This document shows, piece after piece, positions 27,662 to 30,693 of a stretch of 40,407 nucleotides of DNA (positions are counted from its first letter, which is position 1; each line of letters opens with the position of its first letter). Under the pieces are notes generated by a model that made no database searches, was not told the origin of the DNA, and saw only the letters and a program-made list of their open reading frames with translations. The translations under genes were made by a program, and so were the position numbers. This DNA comes from Acidobacteriota bacterium (lineage in GTDB: Bacteria > Acidobacteriota > Terriglobia > Bryobacterales > Bryobacteraceae): positions 1-40,407 of the forward strand of contig JAFDVZ010000029.1 of assembly GCA_018268715.1 (NCBI GenBank). Reading direction: 5' to 3'.

Positions 27662-28615
27662 ATGACCCGAAGAACCCTTGTCACCTCCCTCGCCGCGACG
27701 GCGGCCCAGGCGCAGCCGCGCCGCCGCGTCGAATGGAAACCGAAGCTCGGTGTATTGGGCCCCTTCACGCCCGCCAACGTCGAGTTCGCGCGCTCGCAGG
27801 GCTACAACAACATGATCATCAACATCGGCCGGCGGGACCCCCTGGAGCCCGAAACCGTCACCGACGCCCAGATCGCCGAAGCCCGTGCCCTGCTCGACAA
27901 GGCGGGAATCAGCGTGTCCGCCCTGCAATGCACGCAGAACCACATCCTGCCCGATCCCGAACAGCGCGCCCGCCAGAACTCCTACTTCGTCAAGGTCATA
28001 CAACTCGCTGGCAAGCTCGGCGCGCCCTATATCGGCACCGCCTCCGGCAAGGACCCCGCCCGTCCCTTCGCCCAGCAGGTGGACGACATCGTGCGCACCT
28101 ACAACGAGAAGTACTTCTTGGCCTGCGAGCGAGCCAAGGTCCGCCTGCTCTGGGAGCCGTGGCCCGAAGGCCCCAACCTCGCCACCAGCCCGGTCGGCTA
28201 CGAAGCGCTGTTCAAACGCTTCGGCGACTCCCCCTACGTCGGCCTGCAATACGACCCGTCCCACTTCGTCCGCCAGTTCATGGACCCCATCCAGACCGCC
28301 CGCGACTTCGTGCGCTGGATCTACGACGTGCATCTGAAAGACACCGAAATCCTGTGGCCCGTCCTGCGCAGCGGCGGCATCACCCCGGTGAACAAGCAAT
28401 CCTGGTGGCGCTACCGCATCCCGGGCCTCGGGTCCATCAATTGGGGCGAGTTCTTCAGCGTGCTCCAGGAGGCCGGCTACCAGGGCGCGATGAGCGTCGA
28501 GCATGAGGACGCCCTGTACGGCGCCGACAACAACCCCGGCCCTGATTTCAGCGAGGAGTTCAAGGTGGGCTTCGTCATGGCCAAGCGCTACCTGGCGCAG
28601 TACGTCCCGCTGTAA
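27662..28615 (+). CDS. Sugar phosphate isomerase/epimerase-like TIM-barrel protein
   Basis: The 317-aa protein belongs to the xylose-isomerase-like TIM-barrel superfamily (AP endonuclease 2 family). It starts MTRRTLVTSLAATAAQAQP, which looks like a short Tat-type signal, so it may be exported. Metal-binding segments typical of the fold are RLLWEPWPEGPN (Glu), VGLQYDPSHFVRQF (Asp, His), DVHLKDTE (His, Asp) and MSVEHEDALYG (Glu, His). The actual sugar and reaction are unknown. It ends three bases before the stop of the converging selenoprotein gene. Confidence 0.82.
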   Translation: MTRRTLVTSLAATAAQAQPRRRVEWKPKLGVLGPFTPANVEFARSQGYNNMIINIGRRDPLEPETVTDAQIAEARALLDKAGISVSALQCTQNHILPDPEQRARQNSYFVKVIQLAGKLGAPYIGTASGKDPARPFAQQVDDIVRTYNEKYFLACERAKVRLLWEPWPEGPNLATSPVGYEALFKRFGDSPYVGLQYDPSHFVRQFMDPIQTARDFVRWIYDVHLKDTEILWPVLRSGGITPVNKQSWWRYRIPGLGSINWGEFFSVLQEAGYQGAMSVEHEDALYGADNNPGPDFSEEFKVGFVMAKRYLAQYVPL

Positions 28616-28618
28616 GGC

Positions 28619-29356
28619 CTACCCGGCGAAAGGAACCACCACCGGCTCACCCGTGGGGCGCGACGCCAGTGCGAGCGCCGCCTCGATAATCCGCGTCTGC
28701 AGCGCGACGTCGTTCGGCGCGCCCAGCGGATACCCGAGCGGACGATCCACCGCAAGCGCCCGGGGCGGCCGCACCTTCATCGTCACCTCCGTCAGCACGG
28801 AAACCGACGCCGTGGGAATCCCGGCCCTCTCGATAATGCTCTGAATCAGCCCGACCGACTGATGGCACATCGGTCAAACCGGCGTCAGCAGCACCACGTC
28901 GACCCCGTCGTCCACCAGCTTCCGCGCCACATCGGGCCCCGACGTGTCCATCAGGCGTCCCGGCGCCGTCAGCGATCCCATGAAGCTGAAATGCCGCCGG
29001 GCCACGCCCCCGATCACGCCGCGCTCCGCCAGTTCGCGCAACCGGTCGAGCGGCAGCGCCAGATTCCGATCCTGCTCGATTCCGCGATGATCGAAAGCGT
29101 CGCTCTTGTGGGCGATTCCGAGCGTCGCAAGCTCAGTATCGGCCGCGATTTCGCGATACGTCCAATCGCCCCCGCGGATCGAATCGTCGAAAGCGGGCTG
29201 ATCCGGCCGATAGAACGCGGCGGTGGTCACCACGGCCACCCTCGCCTCGCCAAGCGGCTTCGAAAGCGTGGCTCCAGGCCGCCAATCGACGCGCCGGTAC
29301 GGATAAGCCTGCATGAACACCCGGTACGTCAACTTCAAATCAGCCAGCCGAGCCAT
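28619..29356 (-). CDS. Selenoprotein, GrdB-like (selenoprotein B reductase family), in-frame UGA = Sec
   Basis: One reading frame of 245 codons is interrupted by a single UGA at 28876-28874, codon 161, read here as selenocysteine. The protein resembles the PF07355 family (glycine/sarcosine/betaine/D-proline reductase selenoprotein B), in its short, mostly aerobic version. Family features on both sides of the UGA match one continuous protein. Before it are ARVAVVTTAAFYR (38-50), HRGIEQDRNLALPLDRLREL (90-109), RRHFSFMGS and DGVDVVLLTPV. After it come PMCHQSVGLIQSIIERAGIP, RPPRALAVDRPLG and PLGAPND. Relatives I recall carry Cys in a C-x-x-C here, so U161-P-M-C164 is a redox pair. The ATG at 29356 has GGAA just upstream; a TTG at 29389 is in frame. 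The substrate is unknown. A SECIS-like hairpin follows the UGA. Confidence 0.88.
28845..28863 (-). promoter_or_regulatory. Candidate bacterial SECIS element
   Basis: On the minus strand, 10 bases after the UGA (28876-28874), the RNA can fold a 7-bp stem: AUCAGUC pairs with GGCUGAU, including one U-G pair. The loop is GGUCG. The loop guanines lie 18-19 bases from the UGA, inside the 16-37 range used for bacterial SECIS elements. From memory, the E. coli fdhF element has an 11-base spacer and loop GGUCU. SelB would bind here to deliver Sec-tRNA. An overlapping alternative stem (GACCGA with UCGGUC) exists and could compete. Confidence 0.8.
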
Positions 29357-29388
29357 CGCTTCCAGCGTATCAACAGCACGCCTGTACA

Positions 29389-30693
29389 ATGGTCAGAATC
29401 CCCATGGCCACCCCGTCCGCAGCCGCCCGCACCCCGTTGACGCCTGAACAGATCCGAGGCTTTCTGGCGTCCTGGGGAGGATGGGCGCTCGACGGTATGG
29501 ACTCCTTCATCTACGCGCTGGTGCTCGTCCCCGCGTTGAAGGAGCTGCTGCCGCTGTCGGGCGTGACGCCCACTCCCGCCAACCTCGGCTACTACGGCGG
29601 ACTGCTGTTCGCGCTGTTCCTCATCGGCTGGGGATTCGCCGCCCTGTGGGGCCCCATCGGCGACCGTTTCGGCCGCGTCCGCACCCTGATGCTGACCATC
29701 CTGTGCTACTCGCTGTTCACCTTCCTGGGCGCCGTGGCCGCCAACGTCTGGCAGTTGGCCGCGTTTCGTCTGCTGGCGGGCGTCGGCATCGGCGGCGAGT
29801 GGGCGCTCGGCGGAATCCTGGTGGCGGAGGCGCTGCCCGAAGACCGCCGCAAGACCGGCGCGACGCTGATGCACACCGGCTACTACGTCGGCATCTTCCT
29901 CGCCGGCGCGTTGAACTACCTGGTCGGCGCGCACTACGGCTGGCGCGCGATGTTCGCCCTGGGAGGAGCGCCCGCGTTGCTGGTCGGCTTCATCCGCGCG
30001 GGCGTCCATGAGCCGGAAAAGTGGAAGCAGCGTGCGGGACAGGCGCGGGGTCTGCTGCGCCCCATGCTCGATCTGTTCTCGCCCGCGCTGCGCCGCCGCA
30101 CGTGGCTCAATTCGCTGTACCTGCTGATCTCCATGACCGGGCTGTGGGCCGGATCCGTGTACGTCCCGTCTTCGGTCACCTATCTCGCCACGCGCGCCGG
30201 CTATCGCGCCGATGACGCCGCCCGCCTCGCCTCGTGGGCGACGATGCTGCTGTCGGCCGCCACCATCGCCGGATGCCTGGCCGCCGCGCCGCTCGCCGAA
30301 CGCTACGGTCGCCGCGCCGCGTTGGGCCTCTACTTCGCCGTCATGTTCGTCTCCATCTCAGCGGGCTTCGGCTGGAGCTACTACCTGGCCGCGAACGCGC
30401 TCCCCTGGTTCTTCCTGTCGCTCGCCTTGCTCGGCTTCGGCGGCGCGAACTTCGCCGTCTACACGCTTTGGCTTCCCGAACAGTACCCCACCGGATGCCG
30501 CGCCTCCGCCTTCGCCTTCGCGACCTCGGCGGGCCGCTTCGTGGCGGCCGGCGTAACGTTCCTGGTAGGCTCGGCAGTGTCGCACTACCAGACCATCGGC
30601 ACGCCGGTCGCCTGGACGTCCATCGCATTTCTCATCGGACTCCTCGTGCTGCCCGCCGGAGTCGAAACGAAAGGACAGCCGCTGCCCGAATGA
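29389..30693 (+). CDS. MFS transporter (organic acid:H+ symporter type)
   Basis: Twelve-helix inner-membrane transporter of about 434 aa. The first helix contains GGWALDGMDSFIYALVLVPAL, a hallmark of the aromatic-acid/sialate-type symporters (AAHS, NanT). The loop motif GPIGDRFGRVRTLML (loop 2-3) and RLLAGVGIGGEWALGGILVAE (helix 4) are strongly conserved. The second half repeats LAERYGRRAALGLYF. The likely substrate is a carboxylate, in keeping with the acyl-CoA ligase that overlaps its stop (ATGA at 30690-30693). The start could be the ATG at 29389 or 29404; neither has a clear ribosome binding site. TACAAT at 29385-29390 may be a -10 element, which would favour 29404. Confidence 0.87.
   Translation: MVRIPMATPSAAARTPLTPEQIRGFLASWGGWALDGMDSFIYALVLVPALKELLPLSGVTPTPANLGYYGGLLFALFLIGWGFAALWGPIGDRFGRVRTLMLTILCYSLFTFLGAVAANVWQLAAFRLLAGVGIGGEWALGGILVAEALPEDRRKTGATLMHTGYYVGIFLAGALNYLVGAHYGWRAMFALGGAPALLVGFIRAGVHEPEKWKQRAGQARGLLRPMLDLFSPALRRRTWLNSLYLLISMTGLWAGSVYVPSSVTYLATRAGYRADDAARLASWATMLLSAATIAGCLAAAPLAERYGRRAALGLYFAVMFVSISAGFGWSYYLAANALPWFFLSLALLGFGGANFAVYTLWLPEQYPTGCRASAFAFATSAGRFVAAGVTFLVGSAVSHYQTIGTPVAWTSIAFLIGLLVLPAGVETKGQPLPE

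Follow-up and report, generated by a model that had tools for sequence, protein, structure and literature searches.

The closest described relatives of the protein that concerns us, GrdB and the D-proline reductase, belong to selenoprotein families that a 2026 review gives as experimentally verified, and proteins bearing the PrdB name have also been reported from the sea: 42 "proline reductase PrdB" selenoproteins with a UxxC motif in the Sargasso Sea data (PMC1088965), and 235 "proline reductase PrdB" selenoproteins, together with 110 Cys homologues, in the GOS data (PMC2398784). What does the short, stand-alone form do? In the literature that we searched, which was mainly open-access, we found no role assigned to it. 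The gene described here joins this already known, widespread and functionally unexplained family of selenoproteins, whose UxxC "PrdB" members had been catalogued before.

We have studied it in a stretch of 40,407 nucleotides (the window) from an acidobacterial genome of 7.63 Mb, in 41 contigs and 99.8% complete. The preliminary description held that an apparently split gene is in truth one selenoprotein gene of the GrdB/PrdB family, with 245 codons and a single in-frame UGA at codon 161. That frame exists, on the minus strand (which had been left unstated): from 29356 to 28619, the TGA at codon 161 is the lone internal one, TAA and TAG are absent before the end, and the surrounding motif reads V-L-L-T-P-V-U-P-M-C (Table 1). 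Close relatives share the start position (MA-x-L-x-D-L-K), with ATG, GTG or TTG as start codon, and an alternative TTG upstream, at 29389, gives a reading of 256 aa. Neither of the two flanking genes, one xylose-isomerase-like and the other an MFS transporter, resembles a redox partner.

Table 1. Features of the locus, of its source genome and of related loci; plain numbers are window positions, and C, G and L are our handles for contigs, genomes and loci
Feature	Position	Strand	Detail
PrdB/GrdB-like selenoprotein gene (PF07355)	28619..29356	minus	245 codons + stop at 28619-28621
Sec codon UGA, codon 161	28874..28876	minus	position 1 of U-P-M-C; frame reading
Cys codon 164 of UxxC	28865..28867	minus	proposed resolving Cys; invariant in 60 aligned rows
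GGAAG, weak Shine-Dalgarno-like stretch	29359..29363	minus	2 nt before ATG, short spacing
bSECIS hairpin	28845..28863	minus	7-bp stem (one G-U), 5-nt loop GGUCG
Xylose-isomerase-like TIM barrel gene	27662-28615	opposite to the gene	convergent, gap 3 bases
MFS transporter gene	29389-30693	opposite to the gene	divergent, 32 bases between
tRNA-Sec (selC), anticodon UCA	C5:151986-152077		68.1 bits vs cut-off 47 (RF01852); ARAGORN: tRNA-Sec
selB	C40:441220-443070		361 bits vs cut-off 242
selA	C39:4198-5475		486 bits vs cut-off 268
selD (G000, L052)	C39:516246-517157		366 bits vs cut-off 125; one in-frame TGA
Arsenosugar-named neighbours	L065:5260-5994; L078:3705-7854; L074:6468-7460; L094:1422-1937		NCBIfam
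U-x-x-U homologue (L142)	G278:C91:14944-15567		TGA at both motif ends
Long GrdB-like frame, U-G-T-C (L206)	G435:C53:31384-32022		Acidobacteriota
Long GrdB-like frame, U-G-T-C (L207)	G192:C47:6461-7102		Acidobacteriota

The sequence is recognizably of the family on both sides of the UGA, as had been claimed, for both fragments match the PrdB model TIGR04483 in register: the upstream one, read from the TTG at 29389, with 94.9 bits (profile 22-145 of 238) and the downstream one with 38.7 bits (profile 151-217). Joined, they score 150.6 bits, which makes TIGR04483 the best NCBIfam model. Against PF07355, the joined frame scores 45.9 bits where the gathering cut-off is 22 (profile 196-345 of 347), and the upstream fragment alone, from the same TTG, 47.7 bits. 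In the tree, the window falls within a clade of 18 rows (SH-aLRT 96), all of them Sec forms, made up of the window, 15 loci from Acidobacteriota and 2 from metagenome-assembled genomes (MAGs) labelled Actinomycetota. The acidobacterial host proposed earlier agrees with the nearest named relatives, which are MAGs of Bryobacterales/Solibacteraceae (in a named collection where 171 loci were confirmed, judged on the best 80). Two members of the Bryobacterales clade, L064 and L070, come from MAGs that carry the labels Rubrobacter and uncultured actinobacterium, a placement of their contigs that may reflect transfer or mis-binning. Elsewhere in the Acidobacteriota, two loci (L206 and L207) hold long GrdB-like frames with U-G-T-C, their genomes each having a second row in our survey table (2.8 kb further on in G435); these are possible glycine/betaine-type reductase genes.

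How faithfully is the UGA kept? Among 61 genomes, 8 (the source genome included) carry the gene in 9 places, and all 9 have TGA at the codon-161 site; close homologues with unrelated codons or further stops at that site were not seen among them. In one locus, L011, there is also a TAG, which is the last codon but one of the alignment and is therefore taken as the natural end. When a profile built from eight Sec forms was run over 396 genomes of the phylum, 103 of them proved to hold the family, in 127 rows. By hand count, 79 of these rows hold an in-frame TGA (one of them holds two), its place having been checked in the fetched rows; of the 48 without TGA, 46 span the site, one of these being a marginal hit. 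Among distinct sites fitting the motif pattern (those not fitting it being left out of the count), 87 of 88 are TGA and the remaining one is TGC. Retrieval by so short a pattern may favour the TGA form, a bias on which the profile survey depends less.

Homologues with other codons are instructive as well. At 35 distinct homologous sites without TGA, the position holds Cys in 14, Ser in 16, and Asp or Glu in 5. Thus the Cys forms that the preliminary description told us to look for do exist, and the UGA does begin U-P-M-C, but its picture of relatives with a C-x-x-C at that place suits few of them: plain CxxC occurs at 4 of the 35 sites (L104, L196, L203 and L204). The 16 Ser homologues (L180, L183, L188-L195 and L197-L202) read S-x-L-C and form at most 5 of the 7 pairs of the hairpin described below. 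L142 (Table 1), with 5 of 7 hairpin pairs, may hold two Sec, given a TGA at both ends of its motif. Six residues, C164, D64, D96, D153, Q172 and E176, do not vary across 60 aligned rows. If the 3′ end were dead, its pn/ps should be near 1; against 8 relatives (picked from the 19 nearest loci, at 60-72% identity, where synonymous sites are near saturation), the ratio was 0.29-0.44 on the 5′ side of the TGA and 0.34-0.51 on the 3′ side, the latter being the higher in 6 of the 8 comparisons. These ratios indicate purifying selection on both sides of the TGA, a little weaker downstream.

Directly after the UGA lies a predicted hairpin whose loop is 17 nt from that codon and whose energy is -7.9 kcal/mol alone, or -8.5 with 3 flanking nt per side. 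These values, with its stem and loop, fall within the bSECIS limits as quoted in PMC13188914 (loop of 3-9 nt with G in its first two positions, stem of 4-16 bp, a distance of 16-37 nt from the UGA, energy of -7.5 or lower). Past the TGA the sequences need no gaps to be aligned, and pairs could therefore be counted by position (14-20 with 26-32 after the TGA). All 7 form in 88 of 114 distinct TGA sites and at least 6 in 100; among the 35 non-TGA sites, none forms 7 and three form 6, a contrast that is partly phylogenetic, since those 35 belong to more distant subfamilies. In total, 748 of 798 pairs form, as against a mean of 681 and a maximum of 696 when synonymous codons are shuffled among the sequences, and the 88 sequences with every pair compare with a mean of 40 and a maximum of 52 in 2000 shuffles, which leave the kinship among sequences in place and concern a hairpin chosen from folds of these same sequences. 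Sliding the partner by 1-3 bases leaves at most 349 pairs. Loop positions 2-3 are G-U in 110 of the 114 sites, and the stem shows paired changes, from Ser TCN/Gly GGA to Thr ACN/Gly GGT and from His CAT/Ile to His CAC/Val. Fewer than 6 pairs form in 14 sites, 10 of which are of the HRTVV type, and in 8 of those 10 a shifted hairpin is predicted. Taken singly, the window's 61-nt fold is mildly better than shuffles (z -1.4, with 22 of 200 as good), and an Rfam search of the hairpin region gave four weak matches to unrelated families, at E of 5 or worse.

The genome holds all four of the genes that we had been advised to search for: selA, selB, selC and selD (Table 1). The SelD of this genome, with its in-frame TGA, is probably a selenoprotein itself. 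Contig 9 has one weak match to SelA and one to SelD, both of which were dropped, the two looking by eye like an aminotransferase-like protein and ThiL. The tRNA model demands some caution: RF01852 has matches, weak ones, in all 14 control genomes and exceeds its cut-off in 5 of them, and that cut-off alone is therefore not specific. Of the 61 genomes, 56 have an RF01852 match above the cut-off (52 at E below 1e-11, by hand count) and 52 have one for TIGR00475; against so high a background, the presence of both in 8 of 8 genomes carrying the gene is consistent with our reading, not strong evidence for it. Machinery, conservation and covarying SECIS hairpin together support the UGA-decoded selenoprotein that had been proposed, and Sec is almost certainly what is inserted at codon 161.

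What might such a protein do? Our best overall reading, in which we have considerable confidence, is that this is one intact selenoprotein gene encoding a stand-alone selenol/thiol (UxxC) oxidoreductase. By the standard pathway (see also PMC13188914), SelA, SelD and tRNA-Sec would make Sec-tRNA, and SelB, held by the hairpin just past the UGA, would insert Sec at residue 161. The selenol of U161 would then attack an oxidized or electrophilic substrate, C164 would resolve the bond to an Se-S bridge, to be reset by a thiol of the cell or by a flavoprotein reductase; the protein would do without the pyruvoyl subunit that D-proline and glycine reductases use, and would be something other than the known Stickland enzyme. 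We somewhat favour this UxxC mechanism without a pyruvoyl partner; a peroxide- or disulfide-type substrate is a tentative first guess, less likely than not. An AlphaFold2 model of the protein is confident (pLDDT 95.6, pTM 0.93), and a fold search of the PDB with it returned nothing at E <= 0.001 (among the matches listed, the top probability was 0.60, at a TM of 0.29); a sequence search of solved structures gave a best E of 0.09. With no solved structure matching the fold, there is no homologue from which to read off the mechanism.

Nor does the gene's context in its own clade name a substrate, since no neighbour recurs widely: in 20 loci (the window and L055-L073), as read by a home-made gene caller on contigs that are in some cases short, no other gene family appears in more than 5. 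Two clade members do have redox neighbours, neither of which recurs widely: in L058, a Pyr_redox gene is 1.3 kb away, and in L061, a Pyr_redox/4Fe-4S gene comes next after the selenoprotein gene. The HRTVV sister clade is more eloquent. There, a peroxiredoxin gene, a neighbour that the window's own clade lacks, lies upstream in 11 of 11 loci (among L009-L164), with 748-927 bases from its active-site codon to the one in the PrdB-like gene. Ten of these loci (L016, L098, L119, L121, L122, L128, L129, L131, L132 and L134; nine from Bacillales and one from Acidobacteriota) have Sec in both proteins, and L104, from Ktedonobacterales, has Cys in both; the nine Bacillales loci are close kin, and the independent events are therefore few. 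In L088, L093 and L113, a gene for a pyridine-nucleotide disulfide reductase (Pfam-backed for L088 only) is directly upstream. These neighbours of the sister clades point to selenol/thiol redox chemistry, which the window gene would share by kinship.

Other neighbours suggest another role, in arsenosugar or other organo-metalloid metabolism. Genes with arsenosugar names (TIGR04282, TIGR04283 and ArsS) stand beside PrdB-like selenoprotein genes in several lineages (Table 1): TIGR04283, named by NCBI as an arsenosugar biosynthesis glycosyltransferase, is directly upstream in the clade member L065, and it sits next to the gene in five loci of Facklamia (L078, L083, L086, L087 and L091) and also, with 177.5 bits and so just short of its cut-off, in L094; ArsS is at most 5 kb away in L074, L078 and L108. 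Across the 61 genomes, however, 3 of the 8 that carry the gene have TIGR04283 above its cut-off as against 27 of 53 non-carriers, and ArsS occurs in 2 of 8 as against 22 of 53; in the source genome, ArsS was not found at E <= 1e-30, and the TIGR04283 copy of that genome lies on a different contig (C11). As a general role, we have dropped this link, because the 61 genomes show no co-occurrence and the search for ArsS in this one found nothing, and we regard it as improbable for the window gene.

The family name itself invites a different thought, that the gene encodes the PrdB subunit of D-proline reductase or the B subunit of a glycine/betaine reductase, at work in Stickland-type reduction. 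TIGR04483 is indeed its best model, and the 256-aa reading, and only that, barely passes the subfamily model TIGR01918 (66.3 vs 65.45). Yet the joined score is under the equivalog cut-off of 300, as are those of 9 further short relatives from different clades (125-200 bits for matched stretches, some of them therefore trimmed), all judged by cut-off alone; the GrdB equivalog TIGR01917 is failed by far (60.4 vs 602 bits); and none of the cut-offs of the PrdB, GrdB, GrdF and GrdH models is reached by the window protein. In the tree, GrdB is far away, on a separate long branch, with the motif UxxCxxC. PF09338, which we take to be the pyruvoyl partner family of the PrdA/GrdE type and which was the sole partner model used, was not found in the source genome or in any of the 11 acidobacterial genome records searched (the source and 10 others, one genome probably appearing twice), although the same search matched in 5 of 24 genomes overall, a positive control. 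No partner of the known type having been found, the protein is unlikely to reduce D-proline or glycine here as part of the known complex. We have rejected that identity, which the scores below the PrdB cut-off and the missing PF09338 make very improbable indeed.

Less credible still is a decoding of the UGA as Cys (or Ser), through an opal-suppressor tRNA of the selC* or allo-tRNA type, although such tRNAs exist and allo-tRNAs are reported from Acidobacteria too (PMC7609411). Within the RF01852 matches of the genome, ARAGORN finds one UCA tRNA among the 8 fetched of 9 and calls it tRNA-Sec, the remaining seven being tRNAs for Ser (4), Gly, Leu and Tyr; that UCA tRNA has G before CCA, whereas the selC* tRNA-Cys has U73 (PMC7609411); and SelA, SelB and SelD are all present. 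As for a real stop (a pseudogene, a sequencing error, or two proteins with a restart at the ATG 2 codons past the TGA), TGA is normally a stop and codon 163 is an ATG, but the identical TGA in other assemblies, the variety at codon 163 in relatives (Met in some; Leu, Thr, Ile, Val or others elsewhere), the purifying selection on either side and the covarying hairpin leave it with hardly any probability at all.

An apparently split gene is, then, whole and Sec-coding as far as one can tell from sequence, and we return to the stand-alone selenol/thiol oxidoreductase that it would encode. It is conceivable, if short of probable, that the short UxxC "PrdB" proteins as a group are not proline reductases and form a separate, pyruvoyl-free family of selenol/thiol reductases whose fold is still to be solved; they would be linked to peroxiredoxins in Bacillales and in a single genome of Acidobacteriota, and in some Clostridia to flavoprotein disulfide reductases. 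Should that be true, and should the marine sequences belong to the same kind, a selenoprotein family counted among the ocean's commonest has been filed under the wrong enzyme. A genome in which no known Stickland partner was found offers a test case for what a short PrdB-like selenoprotein does, and the question can be put directly to soil bacteria and perhaps to the sea, where the family of the PrdB name is abundant.

How, finally, does the protein stand among those already known? With GrdB, the selenoprotein B of glycine/sarcosine/betaine reductase (PF07355), it shares the C-terminal part and a Sec at the same site, but it has 245 aa where the model has 431, reads U-P-M-C-H-Q-S in place of UxxCxxC, and comes from a genome in which the GrdE-type gene was not found. 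It is homologous to D-proline reductase PrdB (TIGR04483) over most of its length, with Sec in UxxC in both, and differs in scoring half the equivalog cut-off and in the PF09338 search that found nothing in its genome. The Sec-peroxiredoxin/PrdB-like Sec pairs of Bacillales (L119 and others) represent another clade of the same short family, in which the hairpin register is different and a peroxiredoxin is adjacent, as it is not here. With the marine "PrdB" selenoproteins (PMC1088965, PMC2398784), likened to it by description and taken to be of the short kind from name and motif, it shares the family name (pfam07355 in PMC2398784), a Sec in the UxxC motif, and a family in which Sec forms are commoner than Cys forms, by 235 to 110 in the GOS data (PMC2398784).
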